This document shows, in pieces, positions 3,001 to 50,674 of a DNA stretch of 64,000 bases. How positions within the stretch are numbered: position 1 is the stretch's first letter; each line of letters opens with the position of its first letter. Under the pieces are notes generated by a model, which searched no databases, was not told the DNA's origin, and worked only from the letters and a program-made list of their open reading frames with translations. A program made the position numbers and the translations under genes. Location of the stretch: contig NW_026570258.1 of the NCBI RefSeq assembly GCF_019649055.1, positions 1,161,314 to 1,225,313 of the forward strand, given 5' to 3'. Origin of the DNA: Paramacrobiotus metropolitanus (taxonomy: Eukaryota; Tardigrada; Eutardigrada; Parachela; Macrobiotidae).

Positions 3001-4184
3001 ACAGTACAACACCTAACATGTAAATTAAAATGACGTTTCATACTATAATTACATACGCTAGTATTGTTTTTTATTGTCCAAGCTACTACTACTGTCAAAT
3101 GCACAGGTCCCGTTGGGTGAACGAGTGACTGAGCCGAGTTACCAATACTGTCCAATGCACAGAGCTAGTAAGTTATCGCGGTAAGTGAGCAGGTGACCGA
3201 GCTACCATCAAGAAATCCCAATGCTTGAAACAGAAAGATTCAAAACAGAAGTCTCAGTGTTTTTGCGCATTTGTGATGTAGCGATTCAGGTTCGAATTTA
3301 GATATTCATTCGAAATCAAATAAAGTGGCCAATGGCCATGGACCACAAGAAACGCGGCGGCGAGTTTCTTGTACTAAATAACAGTACATACAATGGCATT
3401 ATGCCTAGAAAAATAGCCTAAATAACGCTTTGATAAACTGAATCATTTGCTGTATGACACAAGCCAGCTATTTGTATTTATCATAACACCATGTTCAATG
3501 TCGCACCTTGCCGGTACTTGCCTCTAAAAGCGCTTTTGTGCCAGAATGCGTTGGTTCAGAAAATCTCAATTCGGGTACAGTGTATTTAGGCTAGGATATA
3601 ATTATTATGACTGTAACGTATCGTATCAACATTATATATATTCGGGGTTGTATATACTCGTACTGTGCATACTTTTACTACTGTATATGGATATACTCGT
3701 TACATTATACTCGTATTAGTATTATAATCGGCGTCCAGCAGAAAAACAGTTTCCAGGTGGTTGCTGGTCATAAAAAAATTAAACCAATTTGCAAAACAGG
3801 GCACCGGCGCTTCTGAGTACCGAAGTGATTTCCAGCTGTACAGCAGCCGGGCAGCATCCGTGTTCAGCGTGTTAAAGCCGACCGGCGTTGGGTGTGGTCA
3901 CACTGGATAATTTTGGTTATCAAATACTGATAAACTTTAATGCAGATACCCTTGTTTACGGACTAATAGCCTTGCTCAATGGTTCAGAAGTACACGTTAC
4001 CAGTACAAGCTAAATCTAAATAAAATCTGAGCAGCAAAGTTAGTATATTGAACGCAAGTCTACATCATAGTCTCAACCCGAGTGATAAAGCTATCACAAT
4101 GCAGAGGTTAAATTATAGTCCAAACCAGAGTAACAGAGTTAGTACAACTACAAACGTAATCCAACGTTATTCGCTTTGGGAACA
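1..4184. other. No supported gene; AT-rich intergenic DNA
   Basis: I see no reading frame here with recognisable homology or a plausible splice-linked structure; the open frames are short and of low quality. Positions of about 1370-1520 hold a degenerate short repeat in which the phrase GTGTACGGAGTAAAAGGT recurs with variations. Several stretches are rich in TTGTTGTA or GTACAGTA words. This may be decayed mobile-element DNA, but nothing identifies a family. Confidence 0.5.
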
Positions 4185-29228: not shown

Positions 29229-29982
29229 CTAAAGGGTGACCTTTCCACAAAAACTATGGAACTTTTGCGCCGATGAAAATAATCCACAGAATCCACACCC
29301 CCTCGGAAAATGCAGGTCTGGGTGAAATCGGCGAAATGCTGCGTATTCGATCAATAACTCGGCAAGAGCGCGTAGAATCCATTTATGTTGCTGATGACCT
29401 TTCAAAAACATTCAGAGCAATTGCTAACAAGGATCGGAATATTTAAAGTAGTCACTCAAAGCAACAAATCAGATGTATTTTGAGTATCTAGAGACTCAAT
29501 TGAAGATCTTCAATTGCAGTTTTGCTTCGGACGACATCTATAGTCTGCATTAACATCGTCTGCAGTTAGCACACTCCACTATTTGGCTAATCGTGCAGTT
29601 GCTATGCCATCCATTTCGAAAACTAGATGTATTATCGAATCGTAACAATTCTGTTTTATCGGCAGAAATTGTCTAGCGTACTTCATGTACAGTATATACA
29701 CACATCCACAGTAGTAAGCAAAAATCAACACCTTTGTACTGACCAAAACCTAACTTATTTTTGCACTAGCCTTCGAAAAAACGTGCGATTCGTACCATCT
29801 ACGCAAACACCTTTGTTGTACTCACAAATTCCGCTTGCGCTTCGTTTTGTTTTGTAATAAAAGTGTTGTTTTATTCCCAAGCACCTTGGAGATTGTGCGA
29901 TACGTCAGGGCGGTACAATTCCCGTTCCATCGCTGTTATCGCCATTTTGTGCTACTCATGACCATGACGATCTGATTCACCA
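29229..29982. promoter_or_regulatory. Shared upstream region between divergent genes
   Basis: About 750 bases lie between the TRC8-like gene (-) and the giant module-array gene (+). They probably contain both promoters and perhaps the first exon of the TRC8-like gene. Two copies of AAAGGTCA on the minus strand (near 29237 and 29393) are the only repeated words I noticed. No TATA box or initiator can be assigned with confidence. Confidence 0.3.
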
Positions 29983-30414
29983 ATGGGAAAACTCGTACTC
30001 GGATTACTCGTAACAGCGCTGATTAAGTATTTGTCCGTGGAGAGCTCCATACTCAGTATGTGTGACATTGACATGACCTTGAGCGACAAACCTCGTCGAT
30101 CTTACGTTTCTCTGCAGATTTCTGTTGGCCTTATAAAGATGTCACGGTGCCGCGTCCCGATGGTTCAGGCAGCAGCTCTGCCAAGCAGTTACTCGGTAAT
30201 TGTGACGGTGACCTTTCTTGCATATGGTAGTGGCGTGGGTGAAAAGTACATTGGTATGGTTGTGCAGGAAAGGGAACCTGTTATCAGAGCGCTGATGAAG
30301 CGGCGTGCAAAGCCAAGAACTATTCGGTATCGTGGAGTAATTTGGCGTGCGATACGTGTAATAAGGATAGCGAATTTTGCTGTTGGAGCCCCACGCCACC
30401 GTCTGATATGCCAG
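29983..30414 (+). other. Signal peptide and clip-like domain of the giant protein (exons 1-3)
   Basis: Exons 29983-30055, 30118-30207 and 30268-30414, all joined in phase 1. After the leader comes a six-cysteine clip pattern: FCWPYKD, then NCDGKGTC across an intron, then EAAC, LACDTC, and a CC pair in EFCCW. The GKGTC motif and the final double Cys are typical of clip domains. Introns are 62 and 60 bases. The donor at 30208 is GTGACC, embedded in the recurrent AAAGGTCA octamer. Confidence 0.72.
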
Positions 30415-33400
30415 GTATGGTGATGGATTTTTCAGATGTAGAACTGCAATACTTTTTACAGCATAAAACAACTGGTTTTTGAACTATTCTAAGCTTTTGA
30501 AACCTACGTTTTCTAAAATAATTTCCCGCTTTCTAAAAATTCATTTTTTTTGGAAATGTTTCATTTCATTTTAGTTTTACCTCATATAAATAAATATCAA
30601 AGCGATCTAATGGCATTACGCGAGCTGGTATTATTTGTGCGAGTTTATTTGGGGCAAATTTGATAACGCTTTTCCGTTAATCGATTTTGTCTAACGTATC
30701 GCTTAAAGTTTTACGTGATCCGTGCAAATGTTTCCAAATGTTATGCGCTTTGAACAGACTTAAGTTAACTAAATTTTAATTTAGTCTGCGTACATTCTAT
30801 AGCATGCAAGAATCAATGATAAATAGACGATAAATCGACGATATCGATGCATTTTAGGCCAGACTTCATAATCCCAGCAAAATCTCAATACTGTCTTACT
30901 ATAAACAGATTAAGACGGAATTTTAAGTACAGTTCTGTACAGACGGAATTTTAAGTTTTCTCAGTTTATTTTAAAAGGAAGTTGAGCGTAAGCGCTGAAA
31001 CACACTGTTAAGTACAGAACAATAAGCAGAATCATTTTGATAAACTGTTTTCGCAGATCCGCCCAAGACCTGCCCGGTGGCGCACAAAATTCCCTACGTC
31101 ATTGACGCTCTTTCGTCCACTTGCGGGAAGGCCCCACTGAATCCCAAAGCACCGAAATACTGCTACATGGCACAGATCGGTTTCTTAGGACGCTACGCCA
31201 ACGGTAGCGACAACTGGATCGAACTGGGCAACGCTCCCCAACCACGCAATCAATCACACGTCGGCGTGATCGTATCCGACCGGCTGGTTCTCAGCACCAG
31301 TGCCAGCGGAACTGACACAGCTGCCGGAATGTAAGGTCACCTCGACGTACAGACTTCTTCGTGACGAAAGCATCTCTGCTTACGCACATTCAGTCGTACA
31401 TTGGAAAAGTTTAGTGCTATAAAAATTAGATTGTTATCCTACAAATTAGTCTTTTGTAACACAAGATGCGTACCAGTGTATTAGTGTAATACTTTTAATT
31501 TACTTATTTTAGTAATTTATTTTTAATTTAATTTTAAGAGTGATTTTTTAAAATTTTTGTCTTTAATCTTATTTTTGATTACTGTATAAATAGTTAATCA
31601 ATGCTTAACCAGATACTATATAAATATTACTATATTACCAATACCAATAAATATTACCAATTACTATATATAGCTATTTTAACTTATTTCTTAATAACGG
31701 GAGACAGCCGCTCCACGCGTTTTCTGTTCAACATGAGAATGCTCAGAATATTTTAGGTACCATTCCTTTCTGTTTTAATTGGAAAGGATTTATTTTTCTT
31801 TTTTATGTGTCTCAACATGCGCACGAAGCGCAGCGCCATTCTTAGATTTCAGTGAAGTCACTTGCACATCTTTTACTTACTATTATGAATAATCTGCTAG
31901 AAAAAGCACCACCGATTCGTTTTTTAGTTGGGAAATGTACGGCGCAATCGCGGGCACTGACACCCGCCTGGCCGTGAAAATTAACGGTAAGCATTTCCCC
32001 GTGAAAGACATCCACATCCAGGCCGCCACCGGACCTAACCGACAAAGCCGCCTATTCGTTCTGGAACTATACGATAAGATCGACTTGATCAGCGACGCGT
32101 GCCCGGTGTGTTTCGGCAACATGACCGGCGTCATTCCCATGTCCAACCGTCCGTACTACGAATTCGGGGCCCACAAGGCGACATACCACGGGAAATGCGA
32201 GCTGGTCGGCCGGAAACCGGAGTTGTGGCATGCCCCGTTCACGTACCATGACTGCGATAAGGATTTCTACGGGATTGATAGCGCCGTGTGGAATCTGCAT
32301 ACATGTATCAGTGAGCTGAAGAATCCGGCGTACGGCACGGCGCCGTATAGCGATGAAGCCAATAAGGTCACGCTGAGCTCCATGGAGTTTTGTACAGGCG
32401 ATCCGGAATGGAATTACTGCATGGTATAGTTTGGAATTCGCTTTACTTTTGGTCAAGCCACACTAAATAATCTGTTATTTGTTTGCAGTGGGATTTGGGA
32501 TCCGCGCTGTAAGTCTTCGATTTGCTCGATCTGATCTGCTGTTTAAGGCGTAACGGTTGTAGTGTATGCCACGATACACCGACGTCCAAACCAAGACTCG
32601 TGGGACTGCAGTTTAGCAGCCAATGCGGATGTAAGTCAAGCTTGCTTTTCAAGAACTATGTCAAGATTTTAATCGATCTGTACTTTAGTTAACTACCAGT
32701 TCGGAGCGCTGATGGAGGATGTCATTGATCTGGACTGGCTCAACGAAATCTTGCCGAAGCGTAAACAATAAACCGTACATATCGAGCTTCGATAAAAAAT
32801 TATTATATGCGTCTGCTACAGCGACCGTGGAACCCACGACCGTAACGCCACCTGGAGACCAATCCAGCACGAGTTCTATATTGGGCGGCGGTTCGGATGC
32901 TACCAAAGGACCGCTGCCTCCCGGACCTCCAACACCGCCACCAAAACCCAAATGTAAGTTATGACGTTATTCCTCTGTCTTGATTTTTGAAGAGAAAGAT
33001 TGACGAATTACAAATTTTCAGGCGAACTGGTGGTCCAGAATAAGTACTCCCAGGAGATACCCGACCGCGGCGTCGTTACCATTACCATTCCAACCCGAAC
33101 CGGTCCCACAGTGGACTCTGTCTTGGCGGTGTGGATGCAGAAATCGGGATCTATTCGGGTACTACATGTGAATACCTTCTCTTGCTAATGAACACAGGAC
33201 GGAACAATTCGTAACAGGGTCCGCTGCCGCCCAGCGACGCCACCCTGTGCCAGAACTACGCATTCACTATTACACGGATGGATAGTAAGCAAAAGTGCGG
33301 GATCGAGGATGTGATACGGCACAGTGCGATCCTGGATGTCTTTGGCACGAAGCCCTCGTCCGACGCGTGTACGGTGCAGTGTTATAACGGCACGCAGGAG

Positions 33401-36400
33401 AGTTGTGGACCCTTCAAGTACTGGCTGGAAGCGCGACCAACACCGGCTGATGCGGCACGGGAACCAGACGTCTATGTACCGGCTTCCATGATTTACTGGG
33501 TAATTTATTAGTTACGTACATTATTCAGGTTTTCTCAAAAAGAGAAAAAATGGTTAATTAAACAAATTTTAACCTGATCGCGTACATAACAGGCGCGGAT
33601 CGATTATACACCACCAGGACCCTTACCGCAACCGCCGGATTCGCGAAAATGTATGTCCTAAACCTATTGCATGTATAATATGTGTTGTAGCATTTAACCG
33701 CATTTAACTTAGGGAGTTTTGAGAATTTGAAAGGTCAGGATGAGGCGGGATATGTTGCAGCTGTACTATAAAATTTTGCTGAAAGCGTTTTATTATACTG
33801 TAGGCGTCATCGCGTTGGCGGAGTTAAATCAACGCGGCCGACTATCGGAAGGCGAAACAATAACGGTCACCATTCCAAAAACCGGCCCATTGAACAACAC
33901 ATTGCTCGTAGCTTGGATGGAACGCGCGGGGAGCGATAGGGTTAGAGTATCTTTCTCGGTTTACTAGTAGTTTTTCCACGCTCGAAAGGTCATCGCGCAC
34001 GTAACCGGTTCTTTGTTTAGGAATTGTGCGACCATTATAACTTTAACAACCGTTTCCTGCGCCTGGTTAAACGTGCTGCGAAGGATTCGTGCGTAGTGGA
34101 GAGCCGAGTGGACTACACACCCCACGGTGCCGTTTTCAACCTCAACGTCCAACCGGGAGCGTGTGCGCAGCGATGCTATGAAGAGGGAGCGTGCGGACCC
34201 TATGAGTTCACCATGGAAGCCACACCCCCCGTGGCAGAAAGCACCGCCTTCCCGCTGGAGTTTGTCCGTGATGCGCGGCAGTATTTCGTAAGTGGTTGCA
34301 GCTTTGCAGTTACTTGCAGCTTATTCTGTAAGCTGCTTCTCATTGAGCTGGTTTTATAAAGGTCAAGTTTGAGAGAACGTTGTCAGCGCCATCATCAACC
34401 TCTTCACTGTCACCAACGACCACGTCGTTATCCCAAACTGTTTCGACCATAGATGCTCACCCGAGCAAACGTAAGGTCACGAAATATGATGAAAAACTCC
34501 GCGTGAATGTTTGTAAGGTCTAAATACGTGTAGCGACTGCCGCGCCACCTGGTACAAGCAGTGCCAAGCCCTCTGCAACAACGTCCACTGGCGGCTCAAC
34601 GATCTCTACCCCATCACCGCTTAAACGAAAATGTGAGCATCCAGAAAAACAGTCAGCGATGAATAGTTAATTCTGTGGGTTTTTTTAGGCGAATTAGTAG
34701 CCGTGAATAAATTCTCGGCGCACGTCCCCCACCGCGGTGTGATCACGGTTACCGTCCCGCAGAACGGTCCCGTACAGGACACCATCCTGACCGCCTGGAT
34801 GCAGAAATCCGGATCTGTCCGCGTACGAGCAAATTTTCTCGGGCTTCGGAAAATTCACGCGCAGAAGAATTCTTTTCCAGGGTCTCACGCCACCCGCTGC
34901 CGACGATCTGTGCGGGAACTACACTTTCACCTTGGTTCCGATGACCGACGGCCAGTCGTGTAGTATGGAGGAAGTTCTGGAGCAAAGCGATATATCCACG
35001 ACCTTTGGAACAATTCCACTGAGAGGGGACGCTTGCACCAGCAAATGCTACTACGCCGACCCCGGACTTTCGGGGATGGAACCGCGGGATGCCGGGGAAG
35101 CCTGTGGACCGCTGAAGTACTGGTTAGAAGCGCAGCCGGCGGCGTGGGATGCGGCACGGGAGCCGGATGTCTACGTTACGACCGGGATGTTGTACTGGGT
35201 TCGTTAGGTCTTTCGAGTGGTGAGTTTGGTGCGGATAGGTGCGTGATCGGTGTTATTTTAGGTACGGATTGATTACAAGCCGACCAAACCATGGCCGAAC
35301 GTACCGAAGCATCCTCCATGTAAGTTTTTGCCGCTTCTAGACAACATTACGATGAAATTTCCGAAAACGGTTTCTTGGTAAGAGGGGTGAGGACCTTGGC
35401 CGAGGCCATCAGTCCTCAAAGTCAAACAATTGTTTTCGTCAAAAACTGAGCTTGAGCCATTAAGGCGTTGGGAACATACCTTATACCAACCCTATTGAAT
35501 TATACTTAAAATGTACAACCTTATTGCTTGCAAACTTTTTAACGGGCGTCAATTTAGGCGTCCTCGGTATGACTGATAATCAGAACGTCAATCTACCGGA
35601 GAACGGTAACGTTACCATCAAGATCCCGAAAACCGGGCCGTTGAATGAGACATTAGTCTGGGCGTGGATGGAGCGGGATCTTGGCAGCAGTGATGGAAAG
35701 AAGGTATGCTCAACTTGACAACTGAGCAGTGTTGCAAGAAGGACTTTCTAACCGGTCGTCAACTACTGGTAGGATTACTGTACCAATTACAATTTTAACA
35801 ACCGATTCCTGCGACGGATGCGAGACACAAGCGAAACCTGTGTCATGGAGGCACGACAGTATTACACCGACGAAGCGGTACATTTCCATGTCAACATCGA
35901 GGCGGGATCGTGCGCGCAACGCTGCTATGAGCAAGGAGAGTGCGGACCATACGAGTTGGCCATGGAAGCCGTGCCGCCCATGGCGCATAATCACATCACA
36001 CCCGGACAATTTGTCCGCGACGAGCGGAGATATTTCGTAAGACGACATCTTGGCATTAAATGGTCTAATTCTCGACCGAGTACTATACAAAGCCAGAACC
36101 TTATTGGGAAAATATTCGAACGGTTACACATGCACACGATCTTGATTAATCGTGTAGGTGAAGTTCGATCCTGAAAAGCGAGATTTCCTGACCACTTCCG
36201 CTACACCGTCCACACTGACTCCGAGCAGAGACAAATGTACGAAAAGCATCCACATCAATCAAATCGTTTATTCCGCGTAATTATTCGTTGCAGAAACTTA
36301 GATCTATAATGTCGTTTTGTGCATTGCAGGCCGTATGGTCGTAGAGCAAGGTTTCGATCAGACCGTTATCAACCCCAAAGATCCCATCGTGATCCTGCTG

Positions 36401-39400
36401 GATGCCGGCTGGGACGGGGAAGAAGTGGTCGCCACAATGTTGACTGCGGACCGAGTATACCAGCGCTTCATCTCAATGACGTTCCCGCATGCTGATTGGC
36501 TGTCTTGACAGGTGGTCTGTCCTAACTACAAGTACAGCTCGACCGCGACGAACACCGTCACCAATCAGCTGCCCACGTGCGAACCGGCGGATCAGGAAGC
36601 CAATACGGCGCAGCGGGACGGAATGATGCTGGTGATGCACATGAATAAACCCCTGACCTGTGCGCAGCGGTGTTTGAAAGGGGAAGCGGCGGGATGTGGG
36701 CCGTTTGCCTTCAACTTGCTGGCCACACCGGATAAAGTGACGACCAACCGCGGTGTTGGAAGCGAAACGATTACGGTACGTTAACGAATGTGGAAGTGGA
36801 AAACCTTTTCCCTGTTCTCAGAGGACTATTTCGAATGACAATTATATCTAAATTTTAATCGAAATCTGTGGCGACTGAGCAAACTGTAATCAGATTGTTC
36901 TGTATTACCTACGTAAACCGAAAGGTCACTTGGTATATACCCGTCGCTTTAGGAGACGATTTTTCCGCTCAAGCAGAAGCGTCTTGTTTTCAGCGTTCAA
37001 TATGCAAAGTTGTACCAGAAAGTCAGTAAATACAGGCATGTTAACCTAAACAGAAAGAGCATAATTACAGTATATTCGTCCCTTTGTCTGTTTTTGCGCG
37101 CATACTACAGGAGAGCACAAACGGTTTCTTAATCTCAGTCGAAAGGGTTTTATTTTGCGCGACAACAGATCGTATACAAAGTTCGGCAACCGACGACGAG
37201 TTCCACGGCTACGACGACAACTACTCGACTGCCTGCGACAACAACAACATCAACAACAACAACAACCACATCCACCACATCGTTACCGGCAACAAGCGCA
37301 TCGACAACCAAACTGACCACAACCGCTCTGTCCACAACAACCGCCGGAAACAGATGTACGTGATAGACGATTACAATAAATAAGTTGTATTGAAATATCG
37401 TGGAGGTTTTCGCCGCTTACAAATGGACAATTTATCTTCCTAGGCAAAATGTTGCTGGAACTAGGCGCTTTTGACCAGACACCCATCGACCCTGGCGAGC
37501 CCCTCATCCTCCCGCTGACGGCAGATCTGGAATCCGAAACATTTTACGCGACCATGACTATGAACAATCAGGTACTTCGGACACCGGCTCGTTTGTGCAG
37601 GAATCTTTCGTTAACGCCTGGAATTTGTGCTCTAGGTCTGTCGCAAGTACGATTACGCCATCACCGACACGCGCTACTCTAGTCAGCAGCCGGCGTCCTG
37701 TGAAGCCATGTATCCGTTCCTCAGCACATCGGTGCAGGACGGATTATCGGCGTACATCGGGGATGATGCGCCGACGTCCTGCGCACGCAAGTGTTTTAAC
37801 GGCGTGACCAGTGCGTGCGGTCCTTTGCTGGTGACAATCATGGCGACGCCCGATCAAGTGACGCCATCGCGTCCCGTCGAAAAGCAAACCGTTACGGTAA
37901 GGAATAACCGAGAACCCCGTTTAGAGATCGATTTTGTGGATGATCCGCTGAGGTGTTTAGATCATCTTCCAACTTCCGACGACAACGGGACCTACCACGA
38001 CCACGATGTTAACTACCACCACAACTGCCACAACAAGCACGGGCAGAACGACGAGTGAAACCACGTCGGCTTCGACCGCGACGCCATCAACAAGCCAGAG
38101 CACAGTAAGTTCAAGTAGCTTTGGGCCAACAGCGCTGCCACCCGGTCCCGAAACACCGACGGTACCAACTGGGTCCAGTACGGGCGCAACGGTAACTCCC
38201 TCGACTGCGAGTGCCGCCACTTCGTCACCGGTTCCCAGTAGCACGGCTTCCCCGACCACATCAACACCGGTACCCACGCCGTCCAGCGCAAAGCCGACCA
38301 CGGTGACGGTGTTACCGTCAACGGAGAGCACTACCACCCCAACGCCGACTACCGATAGCACGACCACATCGACGTCACCGACCACGTCTGCAAGTGCCGC
38401 TACAACGTCACAAACGACTAGCAGTAGCAGTACGACACCAACCACTACAAGTACCACCACTATGATGCCAACGACTGCAAGTACCACAACTACAACACCC
38501 ACAACGACAAGTGCCACCACCACAACCCCGACGACTACCAGCACCACCACTACGACACCAACTACTACAAGTACCACAACTACGACACCCACAACGACAA
38601 GTACCACAACGACAAGTACCACAACGCCAACGACTACCAGTACCACAACGCCTACCAGTACCACCACTACGATACCATCGACTACAAGTAGCAACATGAC
38701 GGCGACCCCGACTACGAGTTCCACTACTGCGACACCAAGTACTACCAGTACCACTACTACAACTTCAACTACGTTGTCAACCGGTACCACACCAGCACTG
38801 ACGCCACCGACTGAGACGGCCACCACATCAACCTCCACCACTGCGTCACCATCGCCGTCTCGGTCGACCACCACCACTCCGGCCGTATCATCCAGCTCCG
38901 AAAGCACTCCCGGTCCCGTGCCACCAAATCCACCGTCCACACCTTCCCGCGGACCGGACACTACGCCAACGGGATCATCGGTAACGTCCACAAGTCCGGT
39001 GCCAAGTTCCACATCGAGCGCCACAACGTCCAGTTCGGTTCCGGTCCCACCCGGTCCCGGTTCTTCGACCAGCATTGCGCCAGCACCGTCCACGGTGTCG
39101 CCATTGACCTCCGGATCAACGAGCACGACAGGCCCGGTGCCATCTGGATCGCCGAGTGGGGGAACGAGTGCTGCTCCCTACACCACGAAGGATCCAATGT
39201 CATGTACGCAACATTGCCCGTCCTCGCAATAACAGAACGGATACAGTCAAACAGACAAGGACTGTGTTTTGTAGGCGAAGTGTCTATGGACGCCGTTGGT
39301 AATAGTGCAAAGGACGGCATGATGTTCGTCGACATCCAGCCAACCGGTCCGCAGGAAAACGGTTTACCGTTGGCATTATGGTCAATGCGACGCCATGGTT

Positions 39401-42400
39401 CCAGGGCAAGTCACGTCCTACTATACATGTGCTCGCAATACGAACACTTAATTTATACCTTTCACGGGTTCACCGCTAACTGAACAGCAAAAATAAATAT
39501 TTATATTTCCAGCGAATTTGCTCTGGGTATCGGTTCCAGCTGTTAAGCGACATCTCCACCACCGGCTGCGAGCTGGGCACCATGATGGAGGGTTCGCCGT
39601 TCTTCGAGCAGGGCTGGATGATCAGCAAATCCCTCATATCCAGCAGCAACTGCGCGCTGCGCTGTTTCCGGGGTGAACGACAGCATTGTGGCCCGCTGGT
39701 GTATCCCGTCGGAATAACGCCGCCGTTTGCTGCTCCGTTAATCCGCAGATTTCTTAACGTACGTATTTAACCTGCAGTTTAAAACAACAGATTTCCGCAT
39801 CCGCTACGGAATTTTGTGCAAAGCGCAGCAAGTGATTCTGAGCGTACAGAGCGTAATCACCCAGTAGGAGTCGATGCGACGAAGGTAAACCCGGAAACCG
39901 GTTTTCTAAACGAAAAACGGTTTCAGTGGTTTAAACGGTTTAAAGAATAGTTTTCTCGTTTGACTAAAGAACATTTTACTCGCGCAATCAAAAGTGCTGA
40001 TGTGTTGCAGGTGACCTATCGCCCACCGTCACCGGATGCGCCAGTCATTGCCAACCTTTCAGACTGTTAGTCGACTATTTCTTCATTCAGTCTAATTTGA
40101 TTGGAACTCTCGAGCGCGACCGTGTCAACACGCCACTGATATTTATTAAACTTTCAGGCCGATATTTCGTTGTCAGCCCGTTAGGCGAAAATCTAAATTC
40201 CACCACCAGTACAACAGTGAATTTTGCTGTGCCCCTGCCAGCGGATGGACTGGGTTCCGGGTTAACGCTCTTCACCGCCGCTATGAAGAAGACCGTCGAG
40301 GTATATTCAAAATCTCCGATAGTCTAAGAAACCTAAGAAATCTAACAAACCAAGAAACCACACATACGCACTTTCGCATTCAGCCGTACAGTTTAACAAA
40401 CACTGTAATTTTTAGTGTGGCTCCCTAAATTCTAATTTATATGATATGCGAGTAGCGCTGGTAGATAGCCTAATCATTATTGCGGTAATCCAACAATTAT
40501 TCTGTACAGGGGCCGTTCTGTCTGGACTACACGTACAGCCAGACCAGCGTCTCCACCAGCAACGGCTGTTCGCTGGGCCAACTGAGACCGATCGGCTACT
40601 GGCCGGGCGTACAGTTCGCCGCGGATACGCAGTCGACGTGCGCTGTACAGTGCTACAACGGGATCACCGCCAGCTGTGGTCCCCATATCGTCACCATAGT
40701 GGCACGCCCCAATCCCGGTACTATCAACGGATTGGAGAGCTGGTCAACGATTACGGTAGGTAGCCATCCATACGGAAAACCTGCTACTGTGAACTTTACA
40801 AATGCTCATTACACTAGATGACGTTTACCCCTCCCGAAGTGACGACTGGTACCACCACGACCACAGTAGCAACGACTTCAACGACGATGTCCCCTGCGAC
40901 TACAAGTACCTCTACCACGACGCCAGCGACTACCAGTACCACTGCTCTTATAGCGTCCACAACGTGGCCAGCTCCATCCAGCACTACCGGCACCACGAGT
41001 GCTGTTTCCACAACCACGATTGACCCCATGTCGTGTACGTAAATTGGTCGATCTTCGTATAATGGAATGGGTAGAGACAAGATTTGTGCTATACAGGCCA
41101 AGCGTCCATGGATCGCCTTGGAAACGTTGTTATAGACGGCATAATGGTAATCGATATCCAGCCAACCGGTCCGCCAGAAAGCGGTATACCGCTGGCATTG
41201 TGGTCGATGCGACGCTATCGTTCCCAGGCAAGTCACATATAAATAGAATGTGCTCCTGTTACTGTGATTGCATAAGCTACCAGAGAAATTCCGTACAATG
41301 CAACCACCAATGGAATGTTTGTCCAACCTTTTCACGATTCACAGTACAGGCCACAGCATACATTACGCACCTGTACAAATACAAAATTTTTCCGACAGTA
41401 AAATACCAGACTGCATTTCCAGTAAGATATTAGCTCGTATGCCGTTTTTGGTGGTATGTTCTTGTGCAGCGAGTGTCAAACGCTGTACACTATCGTTACC
41501 TTTGCGCTGTAAATTTTTTCCTGATTATTTAATGTGACCTTTTCTAGTCCGATACGCAATAAATAGGTTTGGTTAAAATATGAAAACAAGTGTTTATTTT
41601 GCAGCAACTTTGCTCGGGTTATCGGTTTGAGCTGCTGAGCAGCATTTCCATCACCGGTTGCGAGCTGGGCACACTGATGACGGGTTCGCCGTTCGTCGAG
41701 CAAGGCTGGGTCAGCAGCAAATCGCTAATGTCCAACGGCAACTGTGCGCTGCGCTGTTTCCGGGGCGAACGACAGCATTGTGGCCCTTTCATGTACCCTA
41801 TCGCAATTACGCCGCCGGTTGTTGCTCCGCTGATCCGAAGATCGTTTAACGTACGTCAACGTCCGATTTAGAATATTCCGCTTCCACAAAATAATACGGC
41901 ATAGTACTGCATAAAACGGAGCCAGACGATTATCTGCTCATTCAAAGTGGATGCATGTCATGCGATATAGCCGGGTGAATCGGGAACCGATTTCTGTTTG
42001 TTAAACTGAAACAGTTTTATTGTGTGATCAAAATGTGCCTCGGCTTAGCTACTAAAATGTTATTTAGCTAGTCTGGTGGAACTATGGAACGGTTTTTTGT
42101 CTTAATTTGTATTGTGTGCCCCGTGATAATGAATTAATGATTACGCCACAAGGTATACCGTTTGCAGGTGACCTATCGTCCGCCGCCACCGGATTCGCCG
42201 GCCATTGCTGACCTCTCTGACTGTCAGTCGGGTTTGATGTGCTTCTAACTGAGATATTTTTATAATAAATAAACCATAGCTCAATTTAGAAGGATGAGAT
42301 TCCAGTTACCGCTAATTTCGACCTTCACTTTCAGGCATATACTTCGTCGTACTGCCGTTAGGCGAACACCGAAATGCCACCGGCCATCCCACAGTGAGTT

Positions 42401-45400
42401 TCGATGTCCCACTGCCATCTGAAGGACTAGGTGCTGGGTTAACGCTCTTCACCGCCGCTGTGAAGAAGACCCCCAAGGTGTGTTCAGAATTTTGCTTCTC
42501 GAAGAAACCAAAGAAATCAGAGAAACTGAGAGACCACGTTTACTGTCCCACAGAGTCATTTCGTTTAACAACCATTGGTATTCTCCAAACTATATTATAC
42601 GAGTAGCACAGGCGTGCATCCTACTAATTATTGCACTTATCAAAATTATTATCAAAATTCTTATTCTACAGGGGCAGTACTGTTTGGACTACACGTACAG
42701 CTTGGTCAGCATCGAGACCAACGATGGGTGCTCGTTGGGCCAACTGAAGCCCATCGGCTCCTGGCCAGGCGTACAGTTCACCGCGGATACGCAGTCCACG
42801 TGCGCTGTACAGTGCTACTATGGAGTCACCGCCAGCTGTGGTCCACATGTGGTAACTGTCATGGCGATCCGCAATCCGGATACTATCGGCGGAATCGAGG
42901 GCACGGCAACGGTTACGGTGGGGACTACTTTTCATACGAAAGCACGTTGACTTTTCAATACAGGAATCTGTACTGTATTAGATAATGTTCACCCCTCCCC
43001 CGGTGACGGTTAGCCCCATTACCACGACGATAGCAACAACTTCGACAAGTACTACAACTCCCGCGAGTACGACGACAACGACGCCCACGACTACGACAAC
43101 GACAACTACGCCCACAACAACGACAACTACAACCGCGCCCACAACAACGACAACCACGCCCACAACAACGACAACTATAACCACGCCCACAACAACGACA
43201 TCGACGCCTACGACAACAGCAACCACGCCCACAACAACGACAACCACGCCCACGACAACCACGACAACGACGACGATGCCAACGACTACAACGACACCGG
43301 CGCGAGCTACAACACCCTATCTTGGAGAATGTATGTTGAGATTGAAGATATCCTAATGAATATATTGATACGAGTAAATGATGGTCTTCAGCTTGAAGAT
43401 TTCTGGTCCAATTTTCAGGCGAAATAACCGTTGACCCGTTTGGCGCGCCCATGGGTCCGTCGTCGAAAGGGGCCGCCGTGCCGCTCATCAAACCGACCAT
43501 TCCCCGCGAAGGAGCCGTTAAAGGGTTCGCGCTGTTCCAGATTGTCATGCGGCGTAACGGTCCTGGCAAGGTACGTATACAGTACCGATACAATTTAAGA
43601 TAAATCGATCCGCTTTCCATTCCATCAAATATTACGGCCATGACAAGGGCTCACACAAAGCGTGCGCATGCGAGAAACGGTTTTTAACAAGAAATGCGGT
43701 TTTTAACAAGGAAAGCAGTTTTTAACAAGGAAGGCAAATTGTAGGAATACTGCCCCGAATATGGTTATTGGCCAATTACATGGACATCCGCACCATCCTG
43801 CTATCCCGGCAACTTCCGGGCCCCAGCGGCTACCTGGGGCTTCGACGGAATCGCCTTCACTAGCCGCACTTTGCTGCAATCGCAAAAGCAAAAAAGCTGC
43901 GCGGAGGAATGCTACGATGGCAGAGACGCGTCGTGTCGCGGTATCAGTTTTTTTATTACGATTACGGGAGGAACAGCCAATGTCACTAAAGAAGTTCAGG
44001 TACATCGGGTCGCTGTGTAGAAATCGGGGAAATATTTTTTTACTTTCGGCGTTTGCAGATCGAGTTCATTGATCCCCCGCACTACACCCAACCGGACAAT
44101 TCTGGATGTGAGGACCTTCGATTTCCGTTGCATCAGATCCGGTTCTTCCGGTTCTGAACAACTCTTTTACTTTTTAGGTTTCCCACAGGCACCTCATGTT
44201 GCCTTCTGGCACACCAGCTTCAACTCCGGCGAGTTCATCATTGTCAGCTACCCCGCTAATACCATCACGGTGCCGGTGTTCCACGTGGCGCTACGGAAAT
44301 CCTCCAATGTAAACCTGTTTCGTCACATAAAATGCAGGATTTACTAAACTGAATGATTGATGCGATATTTGTAGGTCTTCTGCCGTGGTTACAACTTCAC
44401 CGTTACCGTGACCTCTCCGGTGGTGTGTACTCTCGGCTCGCTGATGAATCTCAATCCCGAACTCTCGTTGGAAGGCGCAACGTTCATGCTGCAGAAAATG
44501 TGCGCGGCGCCGGACTGCAGTAATTTTTGTATGCAACAGTGTGTCAACGGGATCCAGGGTGCATGTGGCAACCACACGGTGACGGTGACAGCCTACCCGC
44601 CTCCGGGAACCGGTGGACAAGGCGTTATCTGGAATGTTGTGTTGTACTTGAGTAAAACGCTGACCGGGTCCACCACGTCCGCGCTGCCCATGTCGTCCAC
44701 GATGTCATCCACAACGACAACGACAACGGTCGCAAAAACGACGACAGTGGATCCTAATATTCCAACGGAATACATTGGCTGTATGTGACAAACTATCTCA
44801 ATTAGCTAAATGTGCATCCAGTGCAGCACAAAACAGTAGAAGCATCGTTTTAACGCATAGTGCGAAAACAAGGGCTTCTCTGCTCGAAACCAGTGCTGGC
44901 AATTTCTACAAACTAATATCGTTTCTTGACCGCGAACCGAGTGGCCGATTTCTGCATTTTTGGTCATTCATTGTGCACGCTATCAGTGACTATGACTGTC
45001 GATGATTAATGTGATCTAATATAGGCGAGACATATCTGGATCCTTTGGGAAATAATTACACCGCCACCAGTGACGTGGACGGGGCGTTAATTAATGGGAT
45101 GCTGAGCGTGGAAATTCCGGCGAACAACCCCGGGGGACTCCCGCTATTTGTCATCTCCATGCGGAATGACCGGGTACGATGCGTTGGCTGTTTGTTTTAT
45201 GGCGACAGTAATCGAGCCAAGCGAGGGTAATAATATAAAGCGCATTGCAGGGGATTTGTCCGGGATACCGCTTTCAGCAGGACCCAAACCCACCCATCGG
45301 CTGCTTTATGGGCTCACTGATGGAAGGACTACCGTATCCGGAGCAAGGCCGCATGTGGACTAATTCATGGGGGGCCATGGGCGGTTGTGCGCAGTCCTGC

Positions 45401-48400
45401 TACCAGAACGACACGAAATACTGTGGCCCGCTCGCCGTGCCGATCAACATCACGCCACCCTATAAAGCCCCGAAAATCCGTCGGGTGATCTCGGTGAGTG
45501 TCGCCTGTATAAACCAGTGGTGTAAGCATTTCACCGCAAACGATGCGATTGCGAATGTCTGCTTAGGTAACATTCCGGCCGAAACTGATCGTGACACAAG
45601 GACTACCCGGCCTTCCAGCGGACATAGCTGGATGTAAGTTCAGCCGTACATCAAGTGCTTTTAATAATAAAAAATAGACTGACCAATATTTGCGTAAAAT
45701 ACTTTATAAAAAATGATACATGCGCCGGGGATTGTAAGAAAATTTCCGAAATCGAGACGAACCAAACAAAGTCTGTAGTCAGCTGAATCAAATAGGTTTG
45801 CATATTTTTATCATCTTCATTCATTTCTGTCGTCAATTAATTCAACATATAACGGCGTCACTGAATGTGATTTAGTTGAAATACAGAGTACTGTATGCAA
45901 AAGTAAATTGTAAGTATTGAATGTTAAACACTCAATAACTGAATAAACCATGTAACGGCAGGTCGGCTGGTAATCGCCGAAGGTCCCAAGACAATCGTCA
46001 CCAGTACTACGCCTTTAACGCTTGACATCATCGTCCCTCGCGATCCCGGACCGGTCGACGTGTTCATTTTCCATGCCTTTATGCGCCGCGGCCGAAATGT
46101 AAGTAGGATTGTGCAGCGCCCATACCTTTTCGACATTTCCATTCACGGTGTCTACCGATTGCGCAGGGCACGATCTGTAAGGAGTATGACTGGAGTGTGG
46201 ATGTCAAGACCAACGTCTCCTGCTATGTGGGCGACATGGTTTTAATATATGCCTGGTATGGCATTAACTACCGCCCGGCGTCATACACGGGGATGGACTG
46301 TGTAACGCAGTGCCAACGGAACGTTCCCGGCGCTTGTGGACCGCATAACGTGTGGGTCCAAGGGAAACCCGGTGCAGGAACGGTGTACGGGGAGACGGGC
46401 CGGCAGGTTGTCATTGTAAGTTCACGCCTATGATTATGCGGTATGTGTTGACCATGGGTTACCAACGTTATTGTAGATTAACTACGTGCGCAACGGAACA
46501 GTCACTAGCGCTCGCCCAACGATCACTACAACAACAACGACCCCAACAACCACAGCAACGACAAGAACAACAACAACAACGCGACCAGCCCCGGTTTATA
46601 TCCCGACACCAGCGCCATCGCCACCACAACCACCTCCGCCCCCGCCACCAGTATGGACAGTCGCGCCAGTTCCCCCGCCACAACCATGGCCACCTTATCC
46701 TTATCCACCCAGTCCGTCACCACCGGGACCGTCGCCACCCGGTGGATTCGATTACAGCAGCTGTACGCTGAATATCAAACAACACTGACTTTCACCAGAT
46801 GTACTGTAATGTGACTGTTCAACAGGTCGCCTGAACTTTGATGTCTTGGGCAATCAGCTCACGAACTCGAACGGCTTCGAGATGATTAATGCATACATTC
46901 CGCGGGAAGGACCGCCGGCGGTCGGTTTGCCGCTGTTTAGTGTGGCCATGCGTTACGGTGTATTCGATCAGGTTTGTAACAGTCTACTTATTGAATTTTG
47001 GACATGATAAGCTACTTCTACAAGCCGAATGATTAATTTCTTGCGTAAAGGTACTGTTAAGATAAGCGCCATGCTGCCTCTTTGAAATCAGCCACTACAA
47101 CGCAGTTGTCGCAATGGTAAATCTAATTATACGAGGAGGTATACTTCAGAGTCAGTAACGGTACCACTGCGTCTAGTCGACCTTTTTTCCCGCACAATGT
47201 CTGAATATAAAAAAACACATTGCCGTTTTATTTTAACGCGTACTTTGGTTCTTCTCCTGTTAGATTTATCATTGAATTCTTGATCGGCCGACCGACTGGT
47301 AGATCCTTCCTTTTTAATCTTTCACTTTGACCGGTTACCGTAAGCAGTAGACGGGCTGCGATTTTCGTGTAGATAAAGAATATACTATTATCCTTTCCAT
47401 GCGTCAGTCCGTCATTTAGCAATCAGCATAATGATGTTGTTTCTGGAGAGGCGGTGGCATGTTCTGTGATTGCAGGCAATCTGTCCGGGATTCACCTTCA
47501 CATTCCAGCAGCGCCACAATCGCAACCCCTGCTCGTTGAGCAACCTCTTCGATGACCGGCGTCTGTATGTTGGGAAAGCATGGGTCACCACGCGTCCGCC
47601 ACCCGAGAACCCCTCGCAGAACTGCGCCCAACTGTGCTACGACCGGACGCCGGCGGGCTTGTCGGGCTGCGGCGACCACGATGTGGTCCTCACCATCACG
47701 CCGCCGCCACAATACCCCAGTCTAGCCGAAACCCGGAACTTCAAGGTAGAAATTGTTTTGCAGGCGTGCGACAATAAATGATGTCAGCTGTCTTTAGGTG
47801 ATGTTGACCCCGCCTGCTCCAGCCGATCGCCATCCGAAAGCCGACTTGCGTGGCTGTAAGTACCGCCGGGGTAAAGGCCGAGATAGGTTTCATGTATGTG
47901 AGTTTTGGGTTGCAGGTGAGACAGTTGTGGATCGTTTGGGCAATGGAGCTACAGTGAATCAATCATACCTCAGTTTTTACCAAATTGCGGGACTAGTGGC
48001 AGCGGACGGGCTGGTCGTGGTTGATCTTGTCTACAATGCCCCGAAAAGTCCGCTGCTGCTTTTCAACGTCGCCATGCAGAGAGGAAAATATGTACGTGAT
48101 TCTTCCGTATACTGTACTTATCAGCGGCTTACCGGTATGCAGAAACATGAGACTTAGTACAAAAAGGGGAATAACGAGTGCACCCACCCTGATTTGGGTA
48201 AAATCGAGTTACGCCAATAACATAAAGTTATGACCGTTTACCACCAGATCGTAAAAATGATGAAACAAACATCTAAGATATAAAAATTTAAAATTCTTAA
48301 ATCACAGAGCGTTTGCAGCTTGTAATACCGCAGCAGTTCTACCATGTGTTATCAGTGAACTTATTACAAATTAATACAATCTAACGCCAAAGGGTGAACT

Positions 48401-50674
48401 CGACCTCAAACAACAGAGTGGGTTCATTCGATATCCCTGCCCTTGTACAGTTGTACTGTAAACGGCAATTTTCTATTGCCATGTCAATATCTGTAGCCCA
48501 TTGGCGCTTATATTTTCAAACCGCCTTCGGGCTTTGATTTCGCGTGGGGGAAGAGGTGGTCTTGTACTGCGAAGCAATTTAGATTCGGTCATACGATATT
48601 CGTTGTACATTTCGTAAAACGACCAACTAATCGTACAAAAATCAAAATCTATGTATGCAGAGGTTGTTTAATAACAGTTTCTCTTCTCCTGTCATTCGCT
48701 GACGAATAACATATTTCTGTTGGCCACCACAGGGAACCTACTGCATGAACTACCAGTACACCCACAACATCGTTTCCAACGGCGGCTGTTCCCTGGGTTA
48801 TGCGGTCATCGGCTCCAACTGGTACCTCCCCGGCGTGCATGTGCGCGGCGACAATACCAACCCCAACGACTGTGCCACCCTGTGCAACAGCGGAAATCAA
48901 GCCGCCTGTGGCCTGCACACTGTCTCGATTACCGCTTATCCCCCGGATAATGACATCGGCGCTCTCATTGTCACAAAACGTGTCGATGTACGTCAGACGT
49001 GTGATGCCGTTTTGCCCGTAGCCGTTTAAAAGTGCCAGGCTGTACGTTTATTACCGTTTTAGGTGATATTTATCCGACCGGCGTCGGAACGAACGACACC
49101 ACAACCGCCGCCTTGGCAGTATCCCCAGACACCGGCGCCCTCGCCACCTGGAGGACAAGGAACATGTACGATATCTCTAAAAAAAACTTTTGAATCATTT
49201 AGCATACGAAGAAAACTTTTTTTGGTATTGCGCCGCAAGGCGAACTAATTATGGTGAAACGACAATTGCTATTGGCTGTAGTGAAAATTCCTATTGGATA
49301 TTGGTTGTGTCTAGAAAATAGATCTTATGTCTCGAAACCCAAGGGCGCTAATTGCATGGCGCTCTTTACGCTAATTTCAGTACATTTATGTAGCACGCTA
49401 CTTTTTTACCTTGTTATTATCCACACCAGTAAAGAAATCTTGGCAGTGACCTTTCTGGCTTACAGGCGCCTGGTATCCCTCATTTGACGGTAACCTCTTC
49501 ACGGTCAACGTTGTCCAAGGCCCGACTGACACCACGCTATTCCGCACCGCCGTGTATTACTTTGGACAAGTAAGTGTGATGCTGTACAAGCCTGTCCCGT
49601 AATTTCTATCGTAAAAGGTACAAATAGCGTAGTATTTGGCACGAAGTTTGCGCTGTGGACGATTGCTACTACGCTATGTCTACCACAACGGCAAATTTAT
49701 TCCACGCAATATTTAAGGTGAAGGATATTAAGGTGCAGAAGGTAATGGCGCCGTAGTGTGGCGTTTGGCGTAACCCGTGAATTTGTATTTGCCCTTCGAA
49801 TGGAAATTACGGGACAAGCTTGTACAATACTCGTGTCTGTCATACCACTGCCATGTGCTCCTTTCAATACATGGAAAAATGATTGATAGGTGTGCAGCGT
49901 CTATCAGTACAAAATCATCCGTGCTGATTGGTATAATCCCTCGAATTTCCGGGGTCCGTTGCCAGCCGAATGGGACTGTCTGCGGATCCTACCGCAGAGC
50001 GATGGAGCACAGGCGGTGAACAGTCTGTCCAATGATCCGTGCGCTCAACGCTGCTACCGGCAGCCGGAGTTCAACTGTCAGGTGTCATTTAAAATGGTGG
50101 CCTATGATCCTAACCCCAATAGTGCTATTCCTATCCTCACGCAGGAGTTCAAGGTACACATGCCATTGAATTCAACAAAGTCGTTAATTTATAATTTGCT
50201 TAGTATTATACATATATTAAGCTAGCCATTTTGATATATAGATATTTATTACTTCGACGTTTTTCACATTCCGGTCAGTTTCACATTTTTTGCGTATCGG
50301 ACACCAGCTTATGCAGCTTTCATACCAGCTGGTACACGAGATTAATAAATAGTTTTTAAGTTGTTCAATTTGGAGCTACGCAGAGAACACCGTGTCTCTG
50401 GTGTGCGGTACGCGAATCCATAATGTGAAAGTGTCCGGAATACATATGCGAAAAACTTCTTCCAAAAGTCGGCTTGGGTTTCTAATTTCTCAGCCAGGGA
50501 TTTTTTGGCTCTGCACTAACCAAATATGATACAGCACAGTAATGACGTCAGTTTACGTGTGATACTATCACGTGTCAAGCATCCTTAAACAGTGTTTTTA
50601 GTCGTCCATCCGTTTTGACAGCCTAACGTTGTAATTTACAGGTGGATTGGAGCAAATCGCCGTCCCTTGGCTAA
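29983..50674 (+). CDS. Giant secreted clip/pseudo-trypsin protein with 17 six-cysteine modules and mucin linkers
   Basis: About 60 exons join in frame to 11,355 coding bases, 3,784 residues plus stop (TAA 50672-50674). Order: signal peptide (MGKLVLGLLVTALIKYLSVE, about residues 1-24); clip-like domain (25-103); trypsin-fold domain without catalytic residues (104-395); Pro/Thr linker (396-439); 17 tandem modules (440-3784). Each module has an A exon (about 45 aa), a B exon (about 82-106 aa) and a linker exon (16-414 aa). A exons are entered in phase 1 through a split Cys codon, and A/B and B/linker junctions are phase 0. The frame closes at every junction, which is the strongest evidence that this is one gene. 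Clip-domain serine protease homologues act in extracellular cascades of arthropods; the array is not a domain I know. An adhesive, cuticular or mucus-like extracellular role is inference. Splitting into several genes is unlikely because only the first exon has a signal peptide and only the last exon a terminal stop. Confidence 0.85.
31057..32760 (+). other. Trypsin-fold pseudoprotease domain of the giant protein (exons 4-8)
   Basis: Exons 31057-31330, 31928-32423, 32489-32508, 32617-32630 and 32689-32760. The strand around the usual LTAAHC reads DRLVLSTSASG, so the catalytic His and its Cys are gone. The region of the catalytic Asp reads RLFVLELYDKIDL, without the D-I-A-L form. The GDSGGPL motif reads CMWDLGSAL across a splice junction, so the catalytic Ser is Leu. 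The IVGG activation site is absent. The end matches a chymotrypsin C-terminal helix (DLDWLNEIL). It is therefore a non-catalytic serine protease homologue. Assignment rests on motif order and spacing. Confidence 0.75.
32822..32953 (+). other. Pro/Thr linker exon between pseudoprotease and module array
   Basis: A 132-base exon, phase 1 at both ends, encodes a Thr/Ser then Pro-rich linker ending PPGPPTPPPKPK plus the first base of the Cys codon that opens module 1. It sets the phase used by all later linkers. Confidence 0.8.
33022..33650 (+). repeat. Module 1
   Basis: A exon 33022-33158 (ELVVQNKYSQ, then VAVWMQKSGS type), B exon 33218-33499 (LCQNYAFTI, KCGIED, DACTVQCYNG, SCGPFKYWLEA), linker 33593-33650 (IDYTPPGPL). 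Closest relative is module 3. Confidence 0.85.
33804..34632 (+). repeat. Module 2 (two linker exons)
   Basis: A exon 33804-33940, B exon 34021-34287 (LCDHYNFNNRFLR, ACAQRCYEEGACGPYEF), then two linkers, 34362-34470 (VKFERTLS, Thr/Ser-rich) and 34534-34632. It is the only module with a split linker. Closest relative is module 4. Confidence 0.82.
34689..35319 (+). repeat. Module 3
   Basis: A exon 34689-34822 (ELVAVNKFS...WMQKSGSVR), B exon 34881-35198, linker 35262-35319 (VRIDYKPTKPWP). The B exon is the longest (106 aa), with an insertion between the CYY and CGP motifs. The donor at 35199 is GTTCGT, a weak form. Confidence 0.82.
35558..36236 (+). repeat. Module 4
   Basis: A exon 35558-35703 (ends WAWMERDLGSSDGKK, longer than module 2), B exon 35773-36036 (YCTNYNFNNRFLRR, SCAQRCYEQGECGPYEL), linker 36158-36236 (VKFDPEKRDF). 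It is a clear sister of module 2. Confidence 0.82.
36330..37355 (+). repeat. Module 5
   Basis: A exon 36330-36454 (RMVVEQGFDQTVINP), B exon 36512-36775 (VCPNYKYS, TCAQRCLKG, GCGPFAFNL), linker 37169-37355, a Thr-rich mucin-like exon of 62 residues. Sister of module 6. Confidence 0.82.
37444..39203 (+). repeat. Module 6 with 414-residue mucin-type linker
   Basis: A exon 37444-37571, B exon 37636-37896 (VCRKYDYAI, SCARKCFNG, ACGPLLVTI). The linker exon 37961-39203 is 1,243 bases of almost pure Thr, Ser and Pro, with short TTTTPTTTST-type repeats in the middle and PGP-rich ends. It is very likely to be heavily O-glycosylated. The antisense strand is open only because the repeat lacks stops. Confidence 0.85.
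39275..40065 (+). repeat. Module 7 (GC-AG donor)
   Basis: A exon 39275-39405 ends ATTCCAGG-type sequence followed by GCAAGT at 39406, a GC donor. B exon 39513-39758 (ICSGYRFQLL, GCELGTMMEG, NCALRCFRGERQHCGP), linker 40011-40065 (VTYRPPSPDAPV). Nearly identical to module 9. Confidence 0.83.
40158..41034 (+). repeat. Module 8
   Basis: A exon 40158-40300 (RYFVVSPLGEN...LTLFTAAMKKT), B exon 40510-40755 (FCLDYTYS, NGCSLGQL, TCAVQCYNG, SCGPHIVTI), linker 40818-41034 (MTFTPPEVTT then Thr-rich). Sister of module 10. Confidence 0.84.
41097..42222 (+). repeat. Module 9 (GC-AG donor)
   Basis: A exon 41097-41227 followed by GCAAGT at 41228. B exon 41605-41850 (LCSGYRFELL, GCELGTLMTG, NCALRCFRGERQHCGP), linker 42168-42222 (VTYRPPPPDSPA). 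Copy of module 7, including the GC donor. Confidence 0.83.
42335..43330 (+). repeat. Module 10 with Thr-rich linker
   Basis: A exon 42335-42477 (IYFVVLPLGEH...LTLFTAAVKKT), B exon 42672-42917 (YCLDYTYS, DGCSLGQLKP, TCAVQCYYG, SCGPHVVTV), linker 42982-43330, 116 residues of TTTTTPTTTT-type repeat. Sister of module 8. Confidence 0.85.
43419..44107 (+). repeat. Module 11
   Basis: A exon 43419-43570 (EITVDPFGAP...FQIVMRRNGPGK), B exon 43745-43999 (YCPEYGYW, SCYPGNF, SCAEECYDG, SCRGISFF; the usual CGP is CRG), linker 44059-44107, only 16 residues. A tandem repeat of GGTTTTTAACAAG sits in the A/B intron at 43674-43735. Confidence 0.8.
44178..44780 (+). repeat. Module 12 (B and linker fused in one exon)
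   Basis: A exon 44178-44308. The exon 44375-44780 carries B (FCRGYNFTV, VCTLGSLMN, NFCMQQCVNG, ACGNHTVTV) and a Thr-rich linker without the intron found at this point in every other module. Frame and phase at the end (phase 1) are as expected. Confidence 0.78.
45025..45633 (+). repeat. Module 13
   Basis: A exon 45025-45173 (ETYLDPLGNN...PLFVISMRNDR), B exon 45251-45493 (ICPGYRFQQ, IGCFMGSLME, GCAQSCYQN, YCGPLAVPI), linker 45567-45633. Resembles modules 7, 9 and 15. Confidence 0.82.
45962..46762 (+). repeat. Module 14 with Pro-rich linker
   Basis: A exon 45962-46098, B exon 46167-46415 (ICKEYDWSV, SCYVGDM, DCVTQCQRN, ACGPHNVWV), linker 46477-46762: Thr-rich, then a poly-Pro stretch (PPPPPPPVW, then PPQPWPPYPYPP). 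Confidence 0.82.
46826..47855 (+). repeat. Module 15
   Basis: A exon 46826-46971 (RLNFDVLGNQ), B exon 47476-47745 (ICPGFTFTF, PCSLSNLF, NCAQLCYDR, GCGDHDVVL), linker 47798-47855 (VMLTPPAPADRH). The A/B intron is 504 bases. Confidence 0.82.
47916..49165 (+). repeat. Module 16
   Basis: A exon 47916-48091 is the longest A exon (58 aa plus split Cys; ETVVDRLGNGA...LLLFNVAMQRGKY). B exon 48733-48987 (YCMNYQYT, GGCSLGYAV, DCATLCNSG, ACGLHTVSI), linker 49063-49165 (Pro-rich). Confidence 0.83.
49466..50674 (+). repeat. Module 17 (terminal, shortened A exon)
   Basis: A exon 49466-49569 encodes only about 34 residues after the split Cys, shorter than all others. B exon 49890-50153 (VCSVYQYKI, DCLRIL, PCAQRCYRQ, NCQVSFKMV; the usual CGP is CQV). 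The last exon 50642-50674 encodes VDWSKSPSLG and the stop, in the place of a linker. Confidence 0.82.

Follow-up and report, generated by a model that had tools for sequence, protein, structure and literature searches.

A predicted tardigrade gene joining a catalytically dead trypsin-like domain to 17 copies of a six-cysteine module

The 64,000-nucleotide stretch of Paramacrobiotus metropolitanus DNA analysed here (the window) contains a gene that is real, conserved and unusual. As predicted from the sequence, it lies on the forward strand at positions 29983-50674 and encodes a head, made up of a signal-peptide-like start, a cysteine-rich N-terminal region and a trypsin-like domain that has lost its catalytic residues, followed by an array of 17 six-cysteine modules (Table 1). 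The best explanation of this layout, which we consider probable though well short of certain, is that a single fused gene specifies a secreted, multivalent extracellular scaffold.

Table 1. Predicted features of the gene (positions in the window; A and B are the two exons of a module).
Feature	Position	Strand	Remarks
Exon 1, signal-peptide-like start, phase 0 to 1	29983-30055	+	First ATG after in-frame stop
Exons 2-3, cysteine-rich N-terminal region	30118-30195, 30268-30414	+	Similar Cys-rich stretches in relatives; CLIP not supported
Exons 4-8, catalytically dead trypsin-like domain	31057-31330, 31928-32423, 32489-32508, 32563-32630, 32689-32760	+	
Critical intron, head to array	32761-32821	+	Weak donor and acceptor
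Exon 9, Pro/Thr/Ser-rich hinge from head to array	32822-32953	+	Gives first base of module 1 C1 codon
Module 1	A 33022-33158, B 33218-33499	+	
Linker 1, short	33593-33650	+	Joins modules 1 and 2
Module 2	A 33804-33940, B 34021-34287	+	Paired with module 1
Linker 2, Thr/Ser/Pro-rich, two exons	34362-34470, 34534-34632	+	
Module 3	A 34689-34822, B 34881-35198	+	Relative of module 1, 54% identical
Module 4	A 35558-35703, B 35773-36036	+	Relative of module 2, 53%
Module 5	A 36330-36454, B 36512-36775	+	
Linker 5, Thr-rich	37139-37355	+	Start more likely 37169
Module 6	A 37444-37571, B 37636-37896	+	Closest to module 5, 35%
Linker 6, Thr/Ser/Pro-rich exon	37961-39203	+	404-aa spacer
Module 7	A 39275-39405 (GC donor), B 39513-39758	+	
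Module 8	A 40158-40300, B 40510-40755	+	
Linker 8, Thr-rich	40818-41034	+	
Module 9	A 41097-41227 (GC donor), B 41605-41850	+	Duplicate of module 7, 71%
Module 10	A 42335-42477, B 42672-42917	+	Duplicate of module 8, 68%
Linker 10, Thr-rich	42982-43330	+	106-aa spacer
Module 11	A 43419-43570, B 43745-43999	+	
Module 12, 8 Cys	A 44178-44308, B fused with linker 12 44375-44780	+	
Module 13	A 45025-45173, B 45251-45493	+	
Module 14	A 45962-46098, B 46167-46415	+	
Linker 14, Thr- then Pro-rich	46477-46762	+	
Module 15	A 46826-46971, B 47476-47745	+	
Module 16	A 47916-48091, B 48733-48987	+	
Module 17, most divergent	A 49466-49569, B 49890-50153	+	29.5 bits leave-one-out
Last exon, final strand-like segment of module 17 and stop	50642-50674	+	

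The gene model was obtained with a simple splice-and-codon model in four refinement steps, and all of its introns are predictions. In the final version, the borders of the B exons were fixed, after which manual adjustments were made to four exons and to the first base of the last one. The model has 60 exons and 59 introns (57 GT-AG and two GC-AG) and a single stop codon at 50672-50674. The original prediction of about 60 exons with compatible phases and one terminal stop is reproduced, except in the length of the protein: 3,811 aa, or 3,801 aa with the alternative linker 5 acceptor at 37169, rather than 3,784 aa. The GC-AG introns use matching donors, those of A7 (39405) and A9 (41227), at the same place in the duplicated modules 7 and 9.

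The array has a regular exon structure. All 17 A exons already entered in phase 1 in a less constrained run, in which B bases were barred from introns and borders were left free. In the final model, every A exon (17 of 17) runs from phase 1 to phase 0 and every B exon (17 of 17) enters in phase 0; 16 B exons also exit in phase 0, the exception being B12, which is fused with its linker and exits in phase 1. The common plan of a module is a linker exon (0 to 1), an A exon (1 to 0) and a B exon (0 to 0), with two departures: linker 2 is made up of two exons and B12 is fused to linker 12. The repeat unit is thus phase 1-1, the usual arrangement for shuffled extracellular modules. The C1 codon is split across the linker exon and the A exon, and each linker exon opens with the last strand-like segment of the preceding module and closes with the first base of the next C1 codon. 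Because linker exons span two neighbouring modules in this way, the array is predicted to read as one transcript. It is highly unlikely that the array is instead divided over two or more genes with only apparent continuity: the introns before B15 and B16 measure 504 and 641 bases, which is long, the array contains AATAAA motifs and its continuity is itself predicted, but neighbouring modules are tied together by their linker exons and two-module units are duplicated across the array. The coding sequence of this predicted continuous array is conserved: dN/dS is 0.17-0.62 in the 10 computable pairs among 12 duplicated exon pairs, the other two being saturated in dS.

A profile of the B exons recovers all 17 B exons in the window, and no further match is observed there at E≤1 among six-frame stop-to-stop segments of at least 25 aa. 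Exactly six cysteines are present in 16 of the 17 modules (M12 has eight), and all 17 share the C4-x3-C5 spacing, which in M12 separates the cysteines that correspond to C4 and C5. When each module was searched with a profile built from the other 16, all 17 were recovered, at 29.5-114.3 bits; the best of 2,000 Cys-fixed shuffles in each of the 17 tests scored 14.7-19.5 bits. The earlier count of 17 six-cysteine modules is upheld by these results.

Kinship of the module was searched in this genome (169,799,020 bases in 533 contigs, approximately 170 Mb), in Pfam and in the PDB. Queries with B8, B1, B4, B13, B6 and the joined A+B of module 16 gave no convincing copy outside the gene in the genome, a result to be read with the caveats that no single module query found all 17 modules and that distant copies may be missed. 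Two extra matches of B4, on contigs C69 and C404 (E 0.08), fall in another frame of an ORF whose letters we take to be P-loop-GTPase-like, and were judged to be chance. The B profile matches loci L006 and L007 at E 2.2 or worse. A partial match of 37 aa in frame 3535 (3535-3795) of L001, a relative of the head described below, has an E value of 0.0045 in a small set and 0.014 with the whole-module profile; it sits between, and outside, the recognised exons of that relative and is probably also due to chance. Neither Pfam (searched at E≤1 with the B exons and at E≤10 with whole modules) nor the PDB contains a significant match, and no kringle is found among the Pfam matches of the 17 modules at those thresholds. 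A match to angiopoietin-2 (E 0.11) falls short of significance; most of its 60 columns lie around a CGP motif. The module had been called unrecognised, and in these databases no named family matches its profile; by sequence, the module family appears to be new. Orphan domains are expected in thinly studied phyla. A fuller account, which we put forward tentatively, is that a six-cysteine extracellular domain arose, or diverged past recognition, within the tardigrade lineage and occurs in a single gene of this genome, where duplication of phase 1-1 exon units expanded it two modules at a time and where it became attached to a dead protease, which would make it an independent invention of the apolipoprotein(a) plan (discussed below) with a new module.

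Two other features of the window, both on the reverse strand, were recognised. Positions 61081-61437 hold a protein kinase domain exon (Pkinase, E 3e-16), presumably LKB1/STK11-like from its look, and positions 6019-6864 encode a MULE transposase domain (E 2e-7) belonging to a copy or remnant of a mobile element.

The linkers divide the array unevenly. The inner linkers 1, 3, 7, 9, 11, 13 and 15 are 6-12 aa in length, whereas the other nine are 16-404 aa and mostly rich in Thr, Ser and Pro. Overall, S, T and P account for 645 of 907 linker residues (78% in the 404 aa of linker 6), in agreement with the mucin-like composition noted originally, and the Thr/Ser/Pro-rich spacers are probably O-glycosylated. 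By this alternation in length the modules stand as seven pairs (1-2, 3-4, 7-8, 9-10, 11-12, 13-14 and 15-16), with modules 5, 6 and 17 as singles. Two linkers are exceptions to a strict short/long alternation (linker 5, with 52 aa, and linker 4, with only 16 aa).

Sequence identity follows the same periodicity. Among modules 7-16, modules of the same parity are 32.1% identical, compared to 22.7% otherwise, a separation reached by only two of 252 balanced labelings, namely the actual labeling and its mirror image. The values are 27.6% and 22.9% (two of 70 labelings) when M9 and M10 are left out, and 25.1% and 22.3% (two of 20) for modules 11-16 alone. In a tree of the modules, the groups 7-9-13, 1-3, 2-4 and 5-6 are well supported and 8-10 is found at 94/97; the placement of modules 11, 12, 14, 15, 16 and 17 is not settled, and the odd/even pattern is recovered in part. 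The kinship of 1-2 with 3-4, and of 7-8 with 9-10, indicates that the array grew at least twice by two-module copying. On this sequence evidence the array is mostly a series of two-module units and not 17 equal beads, a periodicity that the original prediction, correct in the number of copies, had missed.

Structure prediction of an A+B module, proposed as a check in the original prediction, was carried out with AlphaFold2 on A+B read through the intron (pLDDT 62.6) and on B alone (pLDDT 77.9). In both models, the first of them at the lower confidence, the domain is mostly beta and a helix is placed at the C-x3-C motif. Many Ig- and cadherin-like beta-sandwiches, together with other beta proteins, are found among the top 50 structural neighbours of each model. 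The best neighbour of the first model is a viral receptor-binding domain (Z 5.1, rmsd 5.0, 135 aligned residues), and that of the second has Z 3.8 and rmsd 3.1 over 77 aligned residues. A Foldseek search with the first model gave no match at E≤0.001, the best E being 0.37. From these models, the module is a probable beta-sandwich of uncertain kinship.

The C-x3-C-x7-C motif of the module, which is helix-like, resembles that of PAN domains, and there are weak Pfam matches to PAN_4 (E 0.048) and PAN_1 (E 1.4), in one module member each. If the module were a very divergent PAN/apple domain, the protein would consist of repeats of a domain already known for lectin-like or protein-binding activity. 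We regard this as decidedly unlikely, and reject such an origin at the sequence level: a profile comparison of the modules with 12 PAN exons of the same genome fails, giving a probability of 0.3% over 25 columns only. In addition, none of the 49 PAN_1 matches listed for the genome is on the contig of the gene (C38), and no apple domain is present among the 50 neighbours listed for each structure model, although the models are of low to middling confidence and the module may still have an apple fold. The genome is otherwise rich in PAN-domain exons, with at least 49 PAN_1 matches, 42 of them above the family cut-off and several clustered (contigs C63, C34, C45, C107, C76 and others).

The predicted protein begins with a signal-peptide-like segment, as claimed earlier: its hydrophobicity of 2.73 is the highest among the ATG frames scanned at 29500-33010. 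Hydrophobicity is a crude test for signal peptides, and 62 of the 1,158 ATG frames in the window reach 2.6. Searches with the 439-aa head did not identify any Pfam family at E≤10 or, as a single sequence, any PDB chain at E≤1, and the head is not among the PF00089 matches listed for the genome. Its sub-threshold PDB matches (E 0.43-1.6) are all thrombins (34 of 34). A profile of the head and five relatives from the same genome, compared to eight trypsin exons of that genome, gives a probability of 92.1% (E 6.2e-7, 207 columns); the match to the trypsin profile is weak when the head is compared by itself (probability 9.6%, 63 columns). All three catalytic residues are replaced: His57 by Ala, Ser195 by Leu, and Asp102 by Leu or Arg depending on the alignment. 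The dead trypsin fold of the original prediction is thereby supported, and the sequence identifies the head as a trypsin-fold pseudoprotease (an S1A serine protease homologue) that has lost the entire catalytic triad.

The main protease exon matches eight other places in the genome. Five of these loci were examined (L001, L003 and L005 on contig C194, L002 on C408 and L004 on C134); those at C134:176368, C278 and C33 were left out of the comparison. Their main exons are 25-33% identical to that of the window head, and five exon translations of the relatives have no Pfam match at E≤10. Like the window gene, all five encode a cysteine-rich N-terminal region, a dead protease-like domain and a long Thr/Pro-rich stretch. 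In contrast to the window gene, the Thr/Pro-rich stretch of the relatives precedes the protease domain, and the five loci showed no sign of a module array. At least three members of this protease-homologue family lie on one 165 kb contig (C194).

Serine protease homologues of arthropods, including those with clip domains, are secreted proteins with a trypsin fold that lacks catalytic residues, located behind a cysteine-rich N-terminal region; clip domains have six cysteines. The head resembles these proteins in having a catalytically dead trypsin fold after such a region, and differs from them in the lack of a CLIP match and in the attached array of 17 modules. The N-terminal region had been described as clip-like. 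This is not supported: the CLIP profile (PF12032) has three matches in the genome (E 0.2-1.0), none of them in the window, and none is found in the 439-aa head. With seven cysteines, including an extra C-x2-C, the region also departs from the clip pattern, although it may be a very divergent clip fold. The step from a clip domain to the arthropod cascades regulated by clip-domain protease homologues is therefore not supported either. It is accordingly unlikely that the protein is a clip-domain serine protease homologue serving as a cofactor in a proteolytic (melanisation-like) cascade with the array as a tether, even though a dead trypsin domain, predicted to be secreted, does follow a cysteine-rich region here and this layout is common to the five relatives. 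A paper on tardigrade immunity contains no occurrence of "serine protease", "clip", "protease" or "prophenoloxidase" (PMC7056985).

The weakest step of the model is the splice between head and array (32760/32822). Its donor and its acceptor each rank fifth weakest of 59, and the donor scored no better than 101 of 531 decoy GTs of introns. If the joint is left unspliced, the frame meets a TAA at 32769-32771, eight bases into the intron, which is overlapped by an AATAAA at 32767-32772. The relatives, when read on unspliced, likewise stop soon after the protease domain (within about 30 codons in four of five; within about 55 in L002). These observations allow a different reading, in which the protease homologue is complete at the TAA with the AATAAA as its 3' signal, and the array is expressed only by alternative splicing (for example, from exon 1 to exon 9) or as a separate gene. 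Exons 1 and 9 would be compatible in such a splice, both being phase 1: exon 1 ends in phase 1, so the frame would be kept if the head were skipped. Against this reading, AATAAA or ATTAAA occurs 19 times in 29000-52000, and the one at the joint may therefore be due to chance. Furthermore, only 50 bases separate the TAA from exon 9, which itself lacks a start codon, and a hydrophobicity scan found no signal-like ATG frame close upstream of the array; the only in-frame ATG just upstream (32719) lacks a hydrophobic start. The short gap, the lack of a start codon in exon 9 and the absence of a signal-like start nearby favour, on sequence grounds, a product in which head and array are fused. A head-only isoform or a second gene is possible, and we view this reading as doubtful but the most serious competitor to fusion. 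The original joining of head and array is thus retained, with the reservation that the splice is weak and is followed by a stop and an AATAAA.

The same doubt applies in a milder form to the C-terminal end. The frame of unspliced B17 closes at about 50222, and an AATAAA is present at 50344, within the last predicted intron; an alternative C-terminus after B17 is possible. Support for the predicted last splice comes from its good acceptor (rank 52 of 59) and from the strand-like segment of module 17, which it restores.

The original prediction knew of no described protein with this layout. Literature searches on tardigrade serine protease homologues, clip domains and secreted mucin-type proteases yielded no description of such a protein, and the module appears to be without a known family, but the layout itself has a known analogue, apolipoprotein(a). 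As described in PMC11555715, apolipoprotein(a) combines an inactive trypsin-like domain with a long array of repeated three-disulfide modules, which are N-glycosylated, and with O-glycosylated linkers. The order is opposite, the apolipoprotein(a) protease domain being C-terminal and the head here N-terminal, and apolipoprotein(a), according to the same source, keeps the catalytic triad residues that are lost here. Its modules are kringles, whereas those of the window gene are not kringles by Pfam. The likeness is one of analogy and not of kinship.

In the fused-gene explanation, one gene of about 60 exons would give rise to a secreted protein of about 3,800 residues, arranged in the order signal peptide, cysteine-rich N-terminal region, dead trypsin-like domain and 17 three-exon modules (linker, A and B). 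The modules would be disulfide-rich and probably beta-sandwich domains, 14 of them standing as seven side-by-side pairs, with most pairs separated by Thr/Ser/Pro-rich spacers. The dead protease head may bind a partner without cutting it, the module pairs would act as repeated binding units, and the spacers would keep the pairs apart and protect them. Concrete starting points for follow-up are the module profile and the M7-M8 pair. If this explanation is true, the plan of a dead protease with a repeated disulfide module and glycosylated spacers would have arisen a second time with an unrelated module, and the protein would be a very large candidate matrix protein for tardigrade biology.
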